This document shows positions 8,142 through 63,670 of a stretch of 64,000 nt of DNA, one piece after another. The notes below the pieces were generated by a model. It was not told the DNA's origin. It worked only from the letters and a program-made list of their open reading frames with translations, and searched no databases. The position numbers and the translations under genes were made by a program. Positions within the stretch are counted from its first letter, which is position 1; the number at the start of each line of letters is the position of its first letter. Origin of the DNA: Bacteroidota bacterium (GTDB taxonomy: Bacteria; Bacteroidota; Bacteroidia; Palsa-965); contig VBWE01000012.1 of the NCBI GenBank assembly GCA_006218065.1, positions 73,616 to 137,615 on the forward strand, written 5' to 3'.

Positions 8142-9299
8142 ATGTATCCTACGATATACCACGCCGTAAAAGACCTGTTCGGAATTGAAATCAACGGGCT
8201 GAAACTGCTGCAGAGCTTCGGTTTTTTTGTCGCGGTGGCCTTTCTTGTCGCGGCGTACGTGATCGTGAAGGAAATGAAACGGTACACGGCGCTCGGTATT
8301 TTCAAAGCCACGACGCGGAAAACGATAATCGGTGCGCCCGCAGGTATCGCGGAACTCGCCGGCAGTTTTGTGATCGGCTTCCTGCTCGGCTGGAAAATCA
8401 TCGGGATGTTTTTTGCGGAAAACGTCGGTGCCGATCCCCGCGCCTATGTACTTTCCGGCCAGGGCAGCATCGCGGGCGGCGTGGTAATTGGTGCGGCGCT
8501 TGCAGCCTGGCGCTGGTATTCGGCGAACAAAAACAAACTTCCGAAACCCGAAGAGAAAGAAGAAAAAGTACAGCCGGCCGATCATGTCGGCAATATTATT
8601 CTCTACGGTGCGGCATTCGGTTTTCTCGGCGCAAAACTTTTTCACATTTTCGAAAATTTCGGCAGTTTCCTGAACGATCCCTGGGGCATGTTCGCTTCGT
8701 TCAGCGGGCTGACCATGTACGGCGGACTCATCATGGGCGGCGGAGCCGTGATCTGGTATGCGCGCAAACATAAATTCGGCATGCTCCACCTGGCCGACGT
8801 TTGTTCACCCGCGGTTATGCTCGCGTACGGCGTGGGCCGCATGGGCTGCCACATTTCGGGCGACGGCGACTGGGGAATCGAGAACACGACCAATATTCCC
8901 GGGTTCCTGCCGCATTGGTTCTGGGCGTACACATTTCCGAATAACGTAAACGGCGAGGGCCACACGCCCGTTCCCGGCTGCACCGACGGATACTGCATGC
9001 AACTGGATACTCCCGTTTACCCTACTTCGCTTTACGAATTCCTGGCCGGCATTTTTCTTTTCTTCATGCTGTGGAGCATGCGCAAAAAAATCACCACACC
9101 CGGCTTGCTCTTCAGTATTTTTCTCCTGTTCAACGGGGTCGAGCGTTTTCTCGTCGAACTGATCCGCGTGAACAACGTACTGTTTCATATCGGCAGCTTC
9201 GGCGTTACGCAGGCCGAAATCATTGCCTTCTGCCTGGTACTCGTGGGCGGGCTCGGTATCTGGTGGACTAAATTCCGGCGAAAACCGACGCTTTCGTGA
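8142..9299 (+). CDS. lgt: Prolipoprotein diacylglyceryl transferase
   Basis: Lgt transfers diacylglycerol from phosphatidylglycerol to the lipobox cysteine of prolipoproteins in the inner membrane, the first step of lipoprotein maturation. The 385-residue protein has about seven to eight membrane segments and the signature YGVGRMGCHISGDGDWG near residues 230-246, with the essential Arg. A charged loop rich in Lys/Glu (about 128-145) is longer than in E. coli Lgt, as usual in Bacteroidota. Its stop overlaps the start of the next gene by four bases (GTGA), so the two are probably co-translated. Several lipoproteins in this window would be substrates. Confidence 0.93.
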   Translation: MYPTIYHAVKDLFGIEINGLKLLQSFGFFVAVAFLVAAYVIVKEMKRYTALGIFKATTRKTIIGAPAGIAELAGSFVIGFLLGWKIIGMFFAENVGADPRAYVLSGQGSIAGGVVIGAALAAWRWYSANKNKLPKPEEKEEKVQPADHVGNIILYGAAFGFLGAKLFHIFENFGSFLNDPWGMFASFSGLTMYGGLIMGGGAVIWYARKHKFGMLHLADVCSPAVMLAYGVGRMGCHISGDGDWGIENTTNIPGFLPHWFWAYTFPNNVNGEGHTPVPGCTDGYCMQLDTPVYPTSLYEFLAGIFLFFMLWSMRKKITTPGLLFSIFLLFNGVERFLVELIRVNNVLFHIGSFGVTQAEIIAFCLVLVGGLGIWWTKFRRKPTLS

Positions 9300-10096
9300 C
9301 AGCTGATCAACTTGCCGCACTTTGTCCGCGCGTGCAGGAAATTGCGCGTGAAGCGGGTGCGTATATCCGGAACGAACGAAAAGCCTTCGATCATACCACG
9401 ATCGAAAGCAAGGGCCGGAATAATTTCGTTACGCATGTGGATAAAAATTCGGAGCAGATGCTGGTGAACGCACTTGCCCCGTTACTGCCCGGCGCAGGAT
9501 TCATTACCGAAGAAGACGATACCCGCGAACGCAGCGCCGATTATAATTGGGTGATCGATCCGCTCGACGGCACGACGAATTTCATTCACGGCATTCCCTG
9601 TTACTGCGTGAGCATCGGCCTGGTCAGCGGAAACGAATCCGTGCTCGGCGTGATTTACGAAGTGAACATGGACGAATGCTTTTACGCCTGGAAAGGCGGC
9701 GGCGCCTGGCTGAACGGAAAAAAGATACGGGTCGCTGCGACGAAGTCGCTTTCCGAGTCCGTTGTAGCTACCGGTTTTCCTTACGATGTAGGCACACACA
9801 GCCATGCCTACGTGCAGGTTTTAAGCGAACTGCTGAAAACCGTACGCGGACTGCGGCGCATAGGAGCGGCTGCTGTCGATATGGCCTACGTGGCCTGCGG
9901 ACGTTTCGATGCGTTTTATGAATCGGGTATTAATGCCTGGGATGTTGCAGCGGGATCGATCCTCGTGCAGGAAGCCGGCGGCAAAGTTTCCGATTTTAAA
10001 AACGGGACTGATTTTATTTTCGGACGGCAGATTATTTGCGGCCCGGAAGAAGTGACGGGGGAGTTATCCCTTATCATGGAAAAACACTTTTCTTGA
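9296..10096 (+). CDS. Inositol monophosphatase family protein (SuhB-like)
   Basis: A 266-residue metal-dependent phosphatase. It has the Mg-binding motif WVIDPLDGTTNF near residues 84-95 and the second motif NAWDVAAG near residue 213, with EED in between as a further metal ligand. The family hydrolyses inositol monophosphates, and related members act on other sugar or nucleotide phosphates; the substrate is not visible from sequence. The start is a GTG at 9296 that overlaps the lgt stop. It is the last gene of the lgt transcript; the following 336 bases hold a small hairpin. Confidence 0.92.
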   Translation: MTADQLAALCPRVQEIAREAGAYIRNERKAFDHTTIESKGRNNFVTHVDKNSEQMLVNALAPLLPGAGFITEEDDTRERSADYNWVIDPLDGTTNFIHGIPCYCVSIGLVSGNESVLGVIYEVNMDECFYAWKGGGAWLNGKKIRVAATKSLSESVVATGFPYDVGTHSHAYVQVLSELLKTVRGLRRIGAAAVDMAYVACGRFDAFYESGINAWDVAAGSILVQEAGGKVSDFKNGTDFIFGRQIICGPEEVTGELSLIMEKHFS

Positions 10097-10432
10097 TATG
10101 CCGGAAGTCCGATACGCCGGAACCGTTGCCCGAATTATTACGATGTATCCGGGAAGCGCCGCGTTCAGCAGAAGATTATGCTGAACAGCCTGAAATGATT
10201 TCTTCTACCCTGCAATAGTTTGCCGCGTCCCGTACCGGGAAAATTGTCCTGTAAAATGGCGCATCTTTCTTTTCGCCAATTAAACCTTCCCAACCGCCAG
10301 TTAACAGGAAAACAAAACCAGTTATTGCCCGCGCATTCTGAAACATGATTTGCAACCGGTTTTTACACGTTCGCTGCCAAACCATCCTGTACGTTTGTTA
10401 CGTAAACAGTTTTAAACAAGACTGTCCGTTCT
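10097..10432. other. 336-base intergenic stretch
   Basis: GTTCAGCA (10163-10170) and TGCTGAAC (10179-10186) form an eight-pair hairpin with an eight-base loop, a possible weak terminator without a T-run. A -7 promoter element TACGTTTG lies at 10390-10397, 36 bases before the next gene. I see no gene, tRNA or repeat family here otherwise. Confidence 0.5.
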
Positions 10433-11158
10433 ATGAAGCGTCACCTCTCTTCCGCATCCAAACTGTTTCTCCCGCTTTTACTGGTTTGTTTTTCCGCCGC
10501 AACCGCCCAGCGCCGTTGCGAGAAACAGGTTTTTCGCGCCGAGACCAATACCTGGCTCCGCAAAAACTTCCTGACTTTCGCTTTCGAGCGAAGTATAGGT
10601 CCCTCGTCGCTGACTATCGCTGTTGGCGGCGGCTGGCTCGGGCGCGACGAGCAGTACCTGCCCCCGGAAAAAATGAATTCCATGCTGGATGTGGCCGAGA
10701 TTCATAACAGCCAGACCTTTTTCCCGGATGTTGTTCCCCAACTGAAACAGGAAAGACCCTACCTGCAGCGCGTGAATACAAATTATACCGGCGGACTGAT
10801 GCGGATCGGTTACGCGTATTACCTGCACGGACGACGCTGCGACGACCGGCTCAAAGGACTGTATACCGGTCTCGACCTGAGCCTGCTCAAAACATTCGAA
10901 GACCAGGCGCTGATTTACCATTATATCAAAGCCAACAAATCATACGAAGTAAGTTCGGTAAATCGTTTCTGGACACTGGGTGTGGCTTTGCACGTGGGAT
11001 ACCAGTGGCTTTTCCTGAACGATCACCTTGCGCTTAACACACGCGTGCAGCACCCGTTTTACATTCCCTTCACCGAAGAGATCAACACGAATAGTCCTTT
11101 CGCAGGAAATCACTGGGAGCTGAATATCGGGATCGGTTGCCGCATCGGGGCGAAATAA
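10433..11158 (+). CDS. Exported beta-rich protein, likely outer membrane
   Basis: A 241-residue protein of unknown function. The first 25 residues are a signal peptide (basic start MKRH, hydrophobic core, cleavage after ATA before QRR). The mature part alternates aromatic and polar residues in strands such as FLTFAFERSI, GLMRIGYAYYL, LYTGLDLSLLK, WTLGVALHVGYQW and HWELNIGIGCRI, the pattern of a small outer-membrane beta-barrel or a porin-like adhesin. The last strand ends close to the C-terminus, as expected for barrel insertion. It has its own promoter element and faces the convergent cotransporter gene across a strong palindrome. Confidence 0.72.
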   Translation: MKRHLSSASKLFLPLLLVCFSAATAQRRCEKQVFRAETNTWLRKNFLTFAFERSIGPSSLTIAVGGGWLGRDEQYLPPEKMNSMLDVAEIHNSQTFFPDVVPQLKQERPYLQRVNTNYTGGLMRIGYAYYLHGRRCDDRLKGLYTGLDLSLLKTFEDQALIYHYIKANKSYEVSSVNRFWTLGVALHVGYQWLFLNDHLALNTRVQHPFYIPFTEEINTNSPFAGNHWELNIGIGCRIGAK

Positions 11159-38215: not shown

Positions 38216-39301
38216 ATGGCTACTCCACTAAAAGAATACTACAATAAAGACTTCGTTCGTCGCCTGGCTGCGGCGCTGCGTAAAAAAGACACGTCGTTCG
38301 ACTCCGCAGGATTTGAAAAATTTGTTTTTGATAAATCCTGGAAAGACCGCGAACTCAAGCAGCGTGTCCGGCATATCAGCCAGTCGCTTCACAAATTTCT
38401 TCCCTATCTCTATAAGAAGCAGGTTGACCTCCTGCGCGCGGTAGCTGCTGAGTTTAAAGGACTGGAAGCCTTTGTTTTTCCCGATTTCATCGAAGTTTAC
38501 GGACTTGATGATTTACAGACTTCTGTCAAAGCGATGGAAGAATTCACCACCTACTCCACTTCCGAATTTGCCGTGCGCCCGTTCATCATCCGCTATGAAA
38601 AGCCGATGATGAAACAAATGACGGCCTGGGCAAAAAGCAAAAACGAACATCACCGCCGTTTGGCCAGTGAAGGCTGCCGTCCGCGCCTGCCCTGGGCTAT
38701 GGCCCTTCCGGGCTTCAAAAAAAATCCCGCACCCGTGCTGCCGGTTCTCGAATTGCTGAAAAACGACGAAAGCGAATACGTGCGGCGCAGCGTGGCGAAT
38801 AACCTGAATGACATCGCCAAAGATCATCCGCAGCTCGCGCTGGAAACCGGGAAAAAATGGCTAGGCAAAAGCCCGGAAACCGACCGGCTGGTGAAACATG
38901 CCCTGCGCACCCTGCTCAAAAAAGGAAACCGCGAAGCGCTCGCTTTATTCGGACACGGCAATCACGATCATGCGGAAATACACGATCTGAAGTTGGATTC
39001 AACCGGCATTCGCATCGGCGAAAATCTCGGTTTCAGCTTTTCGGTTTCGCACAGCGAGAAAAAAGTGTCGAAACTTCGCCTGGAATACGCGGTGTATTTC
39101 ATGAAAGCGAACGGGAAACAGTCGAAGAAGATTTTTAAAATTTCCGAAAACAGTTTTGAAGGCGGGAAAAAATTTACGTACAAACGCACGCACCGCTTCC
39201 GCGATTTCACTACGCGCGTGCATTACCCGGGCGAGCATGTTATTGCCGTAGTGGTGAACGGCGAGGAAAAAGCGAGGAAAAAATTTCTGCTGAAGAAGTA
39301 A
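38216..39301 (+). CDS. DNA alkylation repair protein, AlkC-like with Ig-like tail
   Basis: A 361-residue protein. The first 230 residues are HEAT-like helical repeats with the AlkC/AlkD-superfamily signature SEYVRRSVANNLNDIAKDHP near 182-201. These are DNA glycosylases that remove alkylated bases without base flipping. The last 110 residues form beta strands (EKKVSKLRLEYAVYFMKANG, HVIAVVVNGEE) consistent with the immunoglobulin-like domain found fused to AlkC. No defect is seen. It is the last host-like gene before the A/T-rich cassette block. Confidence 0.85.
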   Translation: MATPLKEYYNKDFVRRLAAALRKKDTSFDSAGFEKFVFDKSWKDRELKQRVRHISQSLHKFLPYLYKKQVDLLRAVAAEFKGLEAFVFPDFIEVYGLDDLQTSVKAMEEFTTYSTSEFAVRPFIIRYEKPMMKQMTAWAKSKNEHHRRLASEGCRPRLPWAMALPGFKKNPAPVLPVLELLKNDESEYVRRSVANNLNDIAKDHPQLALETGKKWLGKSPETDRLVKHALRTLLKKGNREALALFGHGNHDHAEIHDLKLDSTGIRIGENLGFSFSVSHSEKKVSKLRLEYAVYFMKANGKQSKKIFKISENSFEGGKKFTYKRTHRFRDFTTRVHYPGEHVIAVVVNGEEKARKKFLLKK

Positions 39302-39490
39302 CTTCCAAATACCAACTTTCAAAACTCTACTGCCGGCGGACTAACCTGATCAGACAAAATTGTTTTCAGCAGGCAATATTCAATTGTAAACGCTTGTTGC
39401 CGGGTATTTTGATACATCATCAACAGCATATAGAACTTTGGCTTTGTTGGTTGGGATTTGTAAATTTGAAAGAGTAGTGCTTATACACAA
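39302..39490. other. Spacer before the cassette block
   Basis: A/T-rich stretch with no gene. It ends in ACACAA directly before the GTTATATGCC box at 39491, where an integron attachment site would be cut. I cannot see a complete attC or attI in it. Confidence 0.4.
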
Positions 39491-39500
39491 GTTATATGCC
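39491..39500. other. Cassette 5-prime box GTTATATGCC
   Basis: Ten bases exactly complementary to GGCATATAAC at 40540-40549. In integron cassettes the 5-prime edge (after the G-TT cut) is complementary to the R'' box at the cassette's other end. The gene's ATG (39496) lies inside this box, as expected for cassettes with very short leaders. Confidence 0.6.
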
Positions 39501-40536
39501 ACATAAAGAATGCTTCATACAAGATAATTCTTGCGTCGATAAATTCAAGCAGGCACACATCCTATCTCAATCCGCAACAATGAAGTTAGTTCATGGACCA
39601 ACAACGGCTGGTCTGAACGTAATCCATTTAGGAAATAAGAATAAACAGGGCAGTTACGAACCAAAACCGATTGGTTGGACAAAAGCGTCAGCATATCACT
39701 GCTTTTGTCATGATCACGATAATGATTTGTTCCTTCCAATAGAAAACGATAATAAACTTGACCCAAAAAATGCCCATCAGTTATTTCTACATGTAATGAG
39801 GTCATTTTCTTACGTATATTATCGTAAGAAAGAACAAATGCAATTTTATGCCGATTTAGTAAAAGAGTTTCATGAAATTGGTGATTCGCAAAATAAGCTT
39901 CAAGATTTTCTAGCTCAATTTATCGTTCTGCCGCCTCGCGAATTAAGTAAGGAACAAGCTCTGAAATATAATCTATCGTTAAGCTTTTGGTCATTTCAAT
40001 ATGTGAGAAATGAATTGTTAAAAAGCCTGAACTCGAATAAGTTTGAAAATCTCGAATACAGAACTTTAATTTTCCCCGAACGTTTGCCATTTGCCAGCGC
40101 AGGAGTATTACTAGCGCGTATAGTTGAGCCGCTGCCAAAGAAAATGACCATAGTAAGCATCAATCCTGGCGATCCTGTTGTTAAGTCACCAGCACTAATG
40201 TTCAATGTTTTACCTGATAAATTTGATAGAACAATTATTATTGCAGCCGCGTTGAAGGATGACTACAACGCAGTGCATCTCCTTAACAAGTTTGATCGGT
40301 TGCCACAACCTGAATTGGGTAAAGCATTAACTCGATTGATGTTTGATGCGAATAAAGAAAATACTTTTCTCCATCCCCGATTTTGGGAGTTCTTAAAGAA
40401 AAATGATTACGTGAGCACCGTATGTAAGGAGTTGAATGAAGACAGGGGTTATGATTCAATGCTGGATTCTTTAAAGCTATCAGACCTTAATCTTTTTGAT
40501 CAGAAACTTTCTTGCAAAGCAATTGGAATAGATTAA
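39496..40536 (+). CDS. Cassette gene 1: unknown protein with N-terminal Cys/His motifs
   Basis: A 346-residue cytoplasmic protein. The N-terminal 120 residues have spaced Cys and His (CFIQDNSC, KFKQAHILSQS, YHCFCHDHDNDLF), suggesting a zinc-binding or HNH-like small domain. The rest is mixed helical and strand, unrecognised. It resembles a family of uncharacterised proteins with a CxxxxxxC, AHxxSxS, CxxHDxxLF order, but I cannot name it. Codon use is clearly A/T-rich compared with alkC upstream. It is framed by 10-base complementary boxes and followed by an attC-like site, so it looks like a mobile cassette gene. Zinc binding is an inference. Confidence 0.75.
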   Translation: MPHKECFIQDNSCVDKFKQAHILSQSATMKLVHGPTTAGLNVIHLGNKNKQGSYEPKPIGWTKASAYHCFCHDHDNDLFLPIENDNKLDPKNAHQLFLHVMRSFSYVYYRKKEQMQFYADLVKEFHEIGDSQNKLQDFLAQFIVLPPRELSKEQALKYNLSLSFWSFQYVRNELLKSLNSNKFENLEYRTLIFPERLPFASAGVLLARIVEPLPKKMTIVSINPGDPVVKSPALMFNVLPDKFDRTIIIAAALKDDYNAVHLLNKFDRLPQPELGKALTRLMFDANKENTFLHPRFWEFLKKNDYVSTVCKELNEDRGYDSMLDSLKLSDLNLFDQKLSCKAIGID

Positions 40537-40539
40537 TAC

Positions 40540-40630
40540 GGCATATAACAGCGCATTGGCACCATGCACTTTTCACGTATATTTATTTCAAGGAAAAGCG
40601 CACGACGCCAATTCGCAAAACGTTAGTGGC
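40540..40630. other. attC-like recombination site after cassette gene 1
   Basis: The site starts GGCATATAAC and ends AACGTTAGTGGC. GCGCATTGGC (40551-40560) pairs with GCCAATTCGC (40607-40616) with one mismatch; inside these, TGCACTTTTC pairs with GAAAAGCGCA around an A/T-rich loop. This is the imperfect two-box hairpin of an integron attC site, with outer TAAC and GTTA boxes and a cut expected between G and TT at 40622-40623. Confidence 0.65.
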
Positions 40631-40641
40631 AATGTAAGACT

Positions 40642-41037
40642 ATGGAAATGTTACCGAAAGCACTTAAAATATTGACGGTATTAAGCTACTGTTTTATTCA
40701 ACTAAATGGCGAACATTTAGGCGGCCCCTTAATTCTGTTTCTTTTCCTTGGACTATTTAATGGCTCTTGGATAACCGTTCTGGGTATAATATCAATACTA
40801 ACAGCATTAACTATTCTATGCTTAACAATTTGGAGGGAAATTTTCATCCCTGACAAAATTGTAATCCCTATAGTTTTGATTATTCTTTTTGTTCCTTTAA
40901 CTCTGGAGACTGTTGAAGTTATTGAAAATGGTCGCTGGCTTTCGACAAGATTTTTTCAATATACGGTTGGGCTGTTTATTACTTTAGCTGGTTGGCTGGC
41001 AATCTTAACATTAAAACAAAAGAAACACAGCCACTAA
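40642..41037 (+). CDS. Cassette gene 2: small membrane protein
   Basis: A 131-residue protein with about four membrane segments (near residues 7-25, 30-45, 43-62 and 73-125) and almost no soluble part. No known motif. A/T-rich codons. It begins shortly after the GTTAGTGGC box (40622-40630), whose complement GCCACTAAC is found at its end (41030-41038). This nine-base match fits the cassette rule for a second, separate cassette. Function unknown; many integron cassettes encode small membrane proteins. Confidence 0.7.
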   Translation: MEMLPKALKILTVLSYCFIQLNGEHLGGPLILFLFLGLFNGSWITVLGIISILTALTILCLTIWREIFIPDKIVIPIVLIILFVPLTLETVEVIENGRWLSTRFFQYTVGLFITLAGWLAILTLKQKKHSH

Positions 41038-41072
41038 CACGGGCCGTCATTGTAAAATGACAACGTCAAAAT
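41030..41072. other. Possible decayed attC after cassette gene 2
   Basis: GCCACTAAC followed by ACGGG gives an R'' and the start of an L'' box; GTCATT and AATGAC form a small stem inside, but the closing boxes are not convincing (AACGTC in place of AACGTT). It may be a damaged site. Confidence 0.4.
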
Positions 41073-41101
41073 AAATTTACAAGAAAATAATTGACATCAG
41101 C

Positions 41102-41656
41102 ATGGACTTTAATACTTCACCTGAATTACAGGAATATTTAGACAGCAACGAAAAACTAATTTGGACAGGGCAACCCAAAAAAGGGATTGTTTTTAGAACA
41201 GCAGATATCTTTCTAATTCCATTTAGTCTTTTATGGTGTGGGTTTGCGATTTTTTGGTTCACGAAAACACTGGCATCCGGTGCACCTTTTTTCTTTATAA
41301 TATTCGGGCTTGCATTCGTTATAGTTGGACTGATTTTCGTTTTTGGGCGATTTATTATTGACGCAAAACAAAGAGAATACATTTTCTATGGCTTGACCAA
41401 CGACAGAATTATTATTAAGTCAGGTATTTATAGAAAGTCTATTCAATCACTGAATATCAGAACACTTTCTGATATTGAATATGATGAAAAAAGCGACGGG
41501 AGTGGGACAATAAATATTGGACCGAAAAACCCAATGATGATGTGGGGCAACGGAATGAACTGGTGGCCTGGAGTTAAGGCAACTCCTTCACTTGACTTAA
41601 TACAAGACGTTAGAAAAGTTTATAACAAGATACTGGAAATTCAAAAGGCGAAATAA
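41102..41656 (+). CDS. Cassette gene 3: PH-domain membrane protein
   Basis: A 184-residue protein. It starts NEKLIWTGQPKKG, the usual entry of the bacterial PH (bPH2/YdbT) family, has two membrane segments (about 44-62 and 66-88) and then a PH-like beta domain (IFYGLTNDRIIIKSGIYRK, SLNIRTLSDIEYDEKSDGSG). Function in this family is not settled; some members act at the membrane in stress or transport. Codon use is A/T-rich like cassette genes 1 and 2. An attC-like half-site follows at 41668, but the 5-prime box complement is not found, so its membership in the array is less sure. Confidence 0.82.
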   Translation: MDFNTSPELQEYLDSNEKLIWTGQPKKGIVFRTADIFLIPFSLLWCGFAIFWFTKTLASGAPFFFIIFGLAFVIVGLIFVFGRFIIDAKQREYIFYGLTNDRIIIKSGIYRKSIQSLNIRTLSDIEYDEKSDGSGTINIGPKNPMMMWGNGMNWWPGVKATPSLDLIQDVRKVYNKILEIQKAK

Positions 41657-41667
41657 AAATGCCGATC

Positions 41668-41700
41668 CGCTAACATCGGCTTAGCAATATGGCGACTGGT
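41668..41700. other. attC-like half-site after cassette gene 3
   Basis: CGCTAACATCGGCTTAGC followed by AATATGGCGAC resembles the R''-L'' half of an attC. The partner half is missing. It marks the likely right end of the cassette block, before host DNA resumes. Confidence 0.35.
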
Positions 41701-41765
41701 TAACCGGTTTCAGGATAAAAGGATACGAAAACGTTTTCGGGCAGCATCCCGGTTGGTTGAGGCAT

Positions 41766-41826
41766 CAGCCGCAGATTAACGCAGATTTACGTAGACCAAT
41801 CTGCATTAATCTGCGTAATCTGCGGC
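41766..41826. repeat. Palindrome, CGCAGATTAACGCAGATT family
   Basis: GCCGCAGATTAACGCAGATT on the left pairs with AATCTGCATTAATCTGCG and AATCTGCGGC on the right. Same family as 6400-6571, but more compact. Confidence 0.8.
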
Positions 41827-41847
41827 TCCTTCTTCTTTTCAAATGCC

Positions 41848-41855
41848 TACTTTTG
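41848..41855 (+). promoter_or_regulatory. -7 element that sets the methyltransferase start
   Basis: TACTTTTG lies between two in-frame ATGs at 41843 and 41876. Transcription should begin after it, so the ATG at 41876 is the real start and the 11 codons upstream are not translated. Confidence 0.65.
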
Positions 41856-41875
41856 CACAGCTTTTATCCAAAATC

Positions 41876-43066
41876 ATGGCCAAAGAATACACTAAAATCG
41901 TTCTCCGCTCCGGCAAAGATCAATCGCTGCGGCGTTTTCATCCCTGGGTTTTTTCGGGAGCTATCAAAAAAACATACGGACCAACGCAGGACGGCGATAT
42001 CGTCGAAGTGTTTTCCAACCAGGACGAATACCTCGGAACGGGCCATTACCAGGAAGGTTCGATTACCGTGCGCGTTTTTTCATTTGAACAGGTAAATCCC
42101 GGGCCGGATTTCTGGGCGGCCAAAATCCGCAGCGCCTGGAATTACCGCGAAAACGCAGGCCTGACCAACAAAAGCGATACGAATGTTTTCCGCCTCATTT
42201 TTGCCGAGGGCGACGGCATGCCCGGGCTGATCGTGGATTATTATAACGGCACGGCCGTACTGCAGGCGCACAGCATCGGCATGTACCGGATGCGCAACGA
42301 ACTGGTCGCCGCTATGAAAGAAGCGCTGGGCGACCGGCTGCAGGCGGTGTACGATAAAAGCGCCGAAACACTTCCTTCACGCGAAAGCGCCGGCATGAAA
42401 AACGGCTACCTGCTCGGCGATAACGGAAGCGGCTGCGAAGTTTTGGAAAACGGACACCGCTTTCTCATCGACTGGGAAGCCGGGCAGAAAACCGGTTTCT
42501 TCATCGATCAGCGCGACAACCGTGAACTGCTTGCACATTACTCCAAAGGAAAAAGCGTACTCAATACGTTTTGCTACACGGGCGGATTTTCCGTGTATGC
42601 CGGGAAAGCCGGCGCGACGGAAGTACACAGCGTCGACAGTTCCAAAAAAGCGATCGAACTGACCAACCGGAATATGGAACTGAACGGCTTGTCGCATATT
42701 CACCAGTCGTTTGCCGAGGATACTTTCGATTTCCTGAAAGACAAGGACAACCGTTACGATGTGATCATACTGGATCCGCCCGCATTTGCCAAGCACCACA
42801 ACGTGAAGCACAATGCCGTGATGGGATATAAAAGACTGAATGCCGAGGCGCTGATGAAAATCAAACCGGGCGGAATTCTTTTTACATTCTCGTGTTCGCA
42901 AGTCGTGGACCGGAATCTTTTCTTCAACACGATCATGTCGGCAGCCATCGTGGCACGGCGGAATGTGCGGGTGCTGCATCACCTTACGCAGCCGCCCGAT
43001 CACCCGGTGAATATTTTTCATCCCGAAGGCGAGTACCTGAAAGGGTTGGTTGTATATGTAGAGTAA
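41876..43066 (+). CDS. Class I rRNA methyltransferase, RlmI-like
   Basis: A 396-residue SAM-dependent methyltransferase. An N-terminal PUA domain (about 1-90, HPWVFSGAIKK) is followed by an EEHEE-like linker and the Rossmann methyltransferase domain with VLNTFCYTGGFSVYAGKAGA, an acidic VDSS, and the catalytic motif ILDPPAFAKH; a Cys in TFSCSQ near the end is the expected nucleophile for 5-methylcytosine formation. The family methylates C1962 of 23S rRNA. The start is fixed by the promoter at 41848. Confidence 0.9.
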   Translation: MAKEYTKIVLRSGKDQSLRRFHPWVFSGAIKKTYGPTQDGDIVEVFSNQDEYLGTGHYQEGSITVRVFSFEQVNPGPDFWAAKIRSAWNYRENAGLTNKSDTNVFRLIFAEGDGMPGLIVDYYNGTAVLQAHSIGMYRMRNELVAAMKEALGDRLQAVYDKSAETLPSRESAGMKNGYLLGDNGSGCEVLENGHRFLIDWEAGQKTGFFIDQRDNRELLAHYSKGKSVLNTFCYTGGFSVYAGKAGATEVHSVDSSKKAIELTNRNMELNGLSHIHQSFAEDTFDFLKDKDNRYDVIILDPPAFAKHHNVKHNAVMGYKRLNAEALMKIKPGGILFTFSCSQVVDRNLFFNTIMSAAIVARRNVRVLHHLTQPPDHPVNIFHPEGEYLKGLVVYVE

Positions 43067-63405: not shown

Positions 63406-63670
63406 GCGATTTTCCGCCCGATTTTTTTCCTAAAGATACAAAAGCCTGAAAAGTCGTAACACACTGTTTATCAATTAAATTATCCGACAACAAACGTTTG
63501 CAAACGAATACAACCAAGTACTTCCGGATACAAACGTTTATTAACCGGATAAAATTTGGAGGCTGTCACACCTTTGCACCGCATTTCGAAATTGCACCGC
63601 TAAGATCGATCGGCGGAAATTAAAAAAAGTAAGTGAAGATGCTTACGTATGTTAAACTTTAAAACAAATT
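63406..63670. other. 265-base divergent region before ssb
   Basis: Repeats of the type AACAAACGTTTGCAAACG and ATACAAACGTTTATT (63489-63543) are near-palindromic and could bind a regulator. A possible -7 element CACCTTTG at 63569-63576 serves ssb weakly. No gene seen. Confidence 0.45.

Follow-up and report, generated by a model that had tools for sequence, protein, structure and literature searches.

Integrons have been listed for Bacteroidota (PMC8618304, PMC9668308). The I2 helix of the integron integrase IntI is considered necessary for cassette capture and is regarded as the innovation that enabled integrons, with no natural intermediates known (PMC7790495; also PMC9668308 and PMC9024848), and one survey reported that the insertion is not fully conserved within its subgroup. 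This extra domain serves to recognise IntI, and integron finders require it; therefore, integrons with an I2-less integrase would escape detection or be classed as clusters without an integrase. Among the described systems, CALIN loci (PMC9024848; PMC8618304) consist of attC-bearing cassettes in one orientation with no integrase nearby or in the genome, and IntegronFinder 2.0 calls a CALIN from at least two attC sites without a nearby integrase (PMC9024848). The three-gene block described here, located in a 64,000-nucleotide stretch of a Bacteroidota genome (the window), shares these features but differs from a CALIN in its single complete attC, in belonging to a genome with many small dispersed blocks, and in the presence of integrase relics elsewhere in that genome. 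In addition, a CALIN need not have a leader by definition, whereas the blocks here begin with a promoter-attI-like leader. We conclude that the block is very probably what remains, after decay, of an integron cassette insertion of an ordinary kind, and that its parent integrase was likely an IntI sister lacking I2, although recombination was not assayed. The parent system with its I2-less integrase is the interesting part.

The block is bordered by an alkC-like gene on the left (38216-39301) and an rRNA methyltransferase gene on the right (41843-43066). In two genomes of the same family (G002 and G010), alkC lies directly beside the methyltransferase gene, with gaps of 251 bp and 18 bp respectively, and the block is absent; these genomes represent different genera, not sister strains. 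The block is an insertion between alkC and the methyltransferase gene, and its left border moves to about 39378 once the leader is counted. From left to right, we propose that it comprises the leader with its promoter and attI-like site, cassette 1 and its intact attC, cassette 2, whose attC is truncated, and a third gene that would have lost its 5' edge and is followed by another truncated attC. Rfam returned nothing for the block apart from a miRNA match to the attC hairpin, attributable to chance. A long imperfect palindrome (CGCAGATTAACGCAGATT...) lies at 41757-41830, between the block and the methyltransferase gene.

The weight of the argument rests on attC1, the complete attC of cassette 1 (40539-40630, plus strand; R'' at 40540-40549 and R' at 40622-40630). 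A covariance model (R3), based on 28 attC sites from other arrays of Bacteroidia with the window's own site left out, found attC1 as the sole match at E<=10 in the 64 kb (72.1 bits, E 2.1e-13); the E-values of our covariance models are rough, owing to a short calibration. In the stem of this attC family, 94.9% of cells are paired, compared with 33-40% in slid controls, and each of the 17 pairs shows compensatory changes. For attC1 itself, the bottom strand reaches a folding energy of -17.8 kcal/mol (z -2.98), which none of 200 shuffles equalled, and the top strand folds more weakly (-12.3 kcal/mol, z -0.74). The bottom strand is likewise the more stable one in 24 of 29 array sites of a wider set, but in only 9 of the 15 sites of this genome. 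Moreover, over about 82 nt, attC1 shares 88-89% identity with two attCs of L091, which belong to an integrase-adjacent array of 11 attCs in the same-family genome G004.

The 5' edge of cassette 1 (GTTATATGCC; 39491-39500, plus strand) is a 10-base complement of its own R'' box (GGCATATAAC; 40540-40549), and the 5' edge of cassette 2 (GTTAGTGGC; 40622-40630, plus strand) is a 9-base complement of GCCACTAAC at 41030-41038. Because short inverted repeats are common in this region (81 pairs of at least 9 nt in 2.5 kb), such boxes alone prove little; they are weak evidence in isolation and strong in context. The boxes of both cassettes abut the attC1 defined by the covariance model, and in 36 cassettes of related arrays the edge rule is obeyed with a mean complementary run of 9.1 bases, runs of at least 8 bases being present in 94% of cassettes compared with 6% of mismatched pairs. 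Cassette 1 has an attC and both cassette edges, and it is conceivable, as an inference without a recombination assay, that it could still move if an integrase were supplied.

The gene of cassette 1 (39496-40536, plus strand) encodes a 346-aa protein of unknown function, with no match in Pfam, NCBIfam or PADLOC. Its sole plasmid matches are distant, namely SEC-C domain proteins at 22-24% identity, and a search of viral contigs found none. An AlphaFold model based on two sequences was unusable (pLDDT 36). Among genome contigs, the sole homologue (69% identical) lies within an array of about eight attC-like repeats on contig L020, which belongs to an uncultured Flavobacteriales genome, and the ends of the homologue's cassette match those in the window (start AACGTTATATGCC, end GGCATATAAC). 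With an empty site in relatives and the same cassette in another array, the pattern expected of a mobile integron cassette is present. In L020, a Ser/Thr kinase gene, absent from the window, precedes the homologue in the same cassette, and ATGCCA, common to both starts, suggests a small deletion, which is an inference. This kinase (L020 4889-6001) is PD-T4-6-like in PADLOC (E 6.7e-16); the kinase and the gene 1 homologue may constitute a phage-defence cassette, a possibility only. An alternative reading holds that the block is simply three fixed host genes at which boxes and a hairpin arose by chance, and the abundance of short inverted repeats speaks in its favour. However, this reading is all but excluded, refuted by the independent attC score, the empty site in the two same-family genomes, the homologue within an array and the other attCs of the genome.

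Returning to the integron remnant, its right-hand part is less complete. Cassette 2 contains a gene for a 131-aa probable membrane protein (40642-41037, plus strand), hydrophobic by our reading of the sequence and without a family match in Pfam, NCBIfam or PADLOC, followed by only the 5' half of an attC (attC2; 41030-41050, plus strand), consisting of R'' and the start of L''. The right half is missing: there is no GTT[AG] in the 260 nt downstream and no convincing attC partner. Gene 3 (41102-41656, plus strand) encodes a 184-aa protein with a bacterial PH-like domain and membrane helices, its family matches all being weak (PF03703, PF06713 and PuhB-like), and no matching 5' cassette edge was found for it. 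It is followed by the 5' half of a further attC (attC3; 41667-41698, plus strand), which shares 28 of 32 bases with an attC of L081, and then by a junction with chromosomal DNA. Neither cassette 2 nor gene 3 therefore has a complete attC; they retain 5' halves only and are thus decayed. By inference, a deletion with one end within attC2 and the other in the 5' part of cassette 3, together with another deletion at the right end, would account for this decay. The single complete attC in the window, with half-sites only for genes 2 and 3, counts against our explanation. The first-pass annotation had proposed, from the sequence alone, a cassette array or remnant in which the edge rule is satisfied twice, with an attC-like hairpin after gene 1 and an R''-L'' half-site after the third gene, and all of this held. 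Every box lies where it was placed, the runs of 10 and 9 bases are confirmed, the hairpin is a complete attC scoring far above background, the half-site resembles an attC of L081 (and gene 2 likewise ends in a half-site only), and of the two readings offered it is the remnant that applies.

The leader at the left edge (39378-39490, plus strand; about 115 bp) recurs in the genome. A leader model (R2) detected seven strong copies, one being the window copy (E 2.8e-24) and the others lying on contigs C6 (twice), C13, C19, C41 and C73, mostly upstream of attCs; the leader is scarcely found in sister genera, and upstream homology ends at about the same point in most copies. It contains, by sequence reading, a Bacteroidota-type promoter (TTTGG, 19 bases, TAAATTTG; 39437-39468, plus strand), whose activity is inferred and whose -7 box is conserved among the copies. 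We considered whether these copies could be chance promoter-like sites and rejected this, as the homology extends across about 115 bp at six locations. The leader ends in an attI-like crossover site (TTATACACAA, then GTTA; 39481-39494, plus strand), a pattern that occurs four times in the genome and not at all in a reversed control. This end shares a TATA...AGTTA layout with sites after integrases in relatives; it is a repeated site, unproven as attI. A second leader type is present at C63 and C2. Separately, a sequence at 63456-63507 on the minus strand matches the leader's upstream half in part (E 1e-3) and lacks the attI-like end.

The repetition of the leader also counts against our explanation, since the copying of an attI is not accounted for by ordinary cassette insertion. 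In mobile integrons, attI pieces travel with cassettes (PMC12901181), and by analogy only, the spread of the leader resembles such attI movement. The block shares with the Delta-attI-type cassettes of those integrons the potential for attI pieces to move with cassettes, but the repeated leader here differs in its greater length, its promoter and its position upstream of the cassettes. A rival explanation is that the leader and one or two genes form a separate mobile unit, spread by means other than an integron, with the attC-like ends as passengers. The number of strong copies here against barely any in sister genera, and the common end of upstream homology, favour this view. On the other hand, at most of the sites where both edges of a cassette behind a leader can be located, the edge rule holds, the attCs match those of integrase-bearing arrays, and no transposase was seen in the block. 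We therefore regard the separate mobile unit as improbable and retain the remnant of an integron cassette insertion as our explanation.

Further attCs and traces of an integrase are present elsewhere in the genome. Covariance model R1, which includes the window site and was used to count attCs in this genome and its relatives, gave about 15 further matches in this genome, one of them weak, with pairs on C63, C6, C19 and C2. BLAST and an exact attC pattern had recovered only attC1 convincingly, a misleading negative given that the covariance model found 15 more. By the two-attC rule for CALIN, the window block with its one complete attC falls short; the genome as a whole has about 15, some paired. 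Another attC was observed on the contig of the window, about 26 kb to its left (G000:C20:47663-47800, minus strand), and its 5' edge was not found. No complete copy of an integron integrase was found in the assembled genome, in which only Xer-like recombinases match; the assembly consists of 81 contigs with completeness given as 99.98%, and an integrase in a gap is not ruled out. However, two fragments adjoin or precede leader copies. On C2 (L159 5626-5748), the last codons of an integrase (RIVSPFDSL, then stop) lie before a leader of the second type, and on C6 (L154 11028-11126, minus strand), a 33-residue middle fragment, 76% identical to the G008 integrase, adjoins a leader. The genome therefore once had at least one integron integrase, and probably two. 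A complete integron, which requires an integrase gene in the genome, is not present in the assembly, only these two fragments. As a separate observation on L154 (G000:C6), a leader copy and a short attC flank genes for an HTH-methylase, an endonuclease-like protein and a controller-like HTH protein (8386-10726, reverse strand). These genes are probably a restriction-modification set, possibly carried as a single cassette of about 3 kb whose 5' edge is unconfirmed.

These results also bear on what the first-pass annotation had proposed as checks. A genome search for further sites gave the additional attCs, a search for IntI gave the two fragments and no complete integrase in the assembly, and a comparison with relatives gave the two genomes without the block. 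Its reading would have been refuted by a background-level attC score, a lack of other copies and the fixed presence of the three genes in relatives, none of which came true. Two features were invisible to it: the attI-like leader with a promoter at the left edge, and the integrase of the parent integrons of this class, which lacks the IntI-specific insertion.

The parent system was recognised in other Bacteroidia. P0001, a tyrosine recombinase of the L020 genome, directly precedes an attC array, and 33 of 59 Bacteroidia genomes (this genome and its relatives) contain P0001 relatives clearly above the level of Xer. Sites of the attC type were found in 32 of the 33 genomes with a P0001-type integrase and in 11 of the 26 without one (p 2.4e-6), with the caveat that the E-value dividing the two groups was chosen after both tables had been seen. 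Integrase-adjacent arrays contain 11 attCs in G004, 10 in G057, 8 in G040, 7 in G031 and fewer elsewhere; the attCs of such arrays are all on one strand, and none were found in shuffles. Such integrases adjoin arrays in more than 10 genomes. In G006 (L179) and G051 (L180), integrase and array have the divergent arrangement of canonical integrons, and in other Bacteroidia the integrase lies upstream of the array in the same direction. An interpretation of the G006 and G051 integrases as array-less was rejected, the arrays being on the other side in this divergent orientation.

Where measurable, the segment that separates KGxKDR from HxLRH has a length of 58 residues in the Bacteroidia integrases, as opposed to 100 for canonical IntI and 66 for Xer, and every one of the 20 aligned members has this short form; thus, the IntI-specific insertion (the I2 region, about 42 residues) is absent. 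P0001 scores 213 bits against TIGR02249, below the IntI cut-off of 265. In a tree including XerA and XerC/D, 16 Bacteroidia integrases fall on one side (93/91), sister to IntI (98/97); an earlier tree without XerA had left their single origin open, and the trees contain about 30 to 42 sequences. Nearly all full-length I2-less integrases have a conserved N-terminal domain of unknown function (L046 15345-15545, residues about 7-66), modelled with high confidence as strand-strand-helix-strand-strand-helix. We considered a HARP-like identity for this domain, which remains no more than a possibility; Pfam gave only weak matches to DUF5710. The best overall fold matches of the integrase are XerA (5hxy) and IntI4.

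Two further groups of known systems are close to this one. With sedentary chromosomal integrons carrying canonical IntI, the Bacteroidia arrays share the attC stem, the R''/R' boxes, the edge rule, an integrase-adjacent attI-like site, arrays in one orientation and, in G006 and G051, the divergent integrase. They differ in that the related integrase lacks the IntI-specific insertion and has an extra N-terminal domain, and in that it is often upstream of the cassettes and in the same direction. With XerA, XerC and XerD, the Bacteroidia integrases share the short segment without an I2 region, and XerA gives the best fold match; unlike Xer, they have an IntI-like C-terminal tail of the SPFD type, the N-terminal domain and attC arrays as neighbours, and the tree groups them with IntI.

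It could also be argued that a canonical IntI with I2, elsewhere or earlier, inserted the cassettes, and that the I2-less recombinases beside the arrays do another job. In its favour, 70 of 248 genomes of the phylum have a canonical IntI above the curated cut-off, and different integrases can use the same attCs. However, the genomes with canonical IntI are nearly all in other classes, G093 being the only one in the same class; the I2-less integrases adjoin the arrays and co-occur with attCs across genomes; and canonical IntI is not among the listed matches of array-bearing genomes (TIGR02249 was not run on each). This alternative therefore appears unlikely.

Our data suggest a model for the remnant whereby the cassettes were captured while the genome or its ancestor still had a Bacteroidia-type integrase, probably the IntI sister without the I2 insertion and with the extra N-terminal domain. 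The folded bottom strand of attC would be recombined by this integrase at G/TT of attI, and the block genes would be transcribed from the leader promoter. The integrase genes would have decayed afterwards, and deletions would have taken the right halves of attC2 and attC3. The parent system is likely to be an apparently widespread, new integron variant with an I2-less integrase, with recombination of single-stranded attC inferred. I2-less integrases beside Bacteroidia attC arrays were not described in the literature searched, which included no preprints and few subscription journals. A bolder reading, which we also consider likely with capture again inferred, is that Bacteroidia hold a widespread second lineage of integron integrases, the sister of IntI, which captures folded attCs without I2, possibly by means of its N-terminal domain. 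If this is true, integrons may predate I2, or I2 may have been lost and replaced in the Bacteroidia lineage. With a natural sister lineage of IntI beside real attC arrays, the question of how single-strand attC recombination arose could be tested directly, and such a lineage also suggests that Bacteroidia carry a large, uncounted pool of cassettes.
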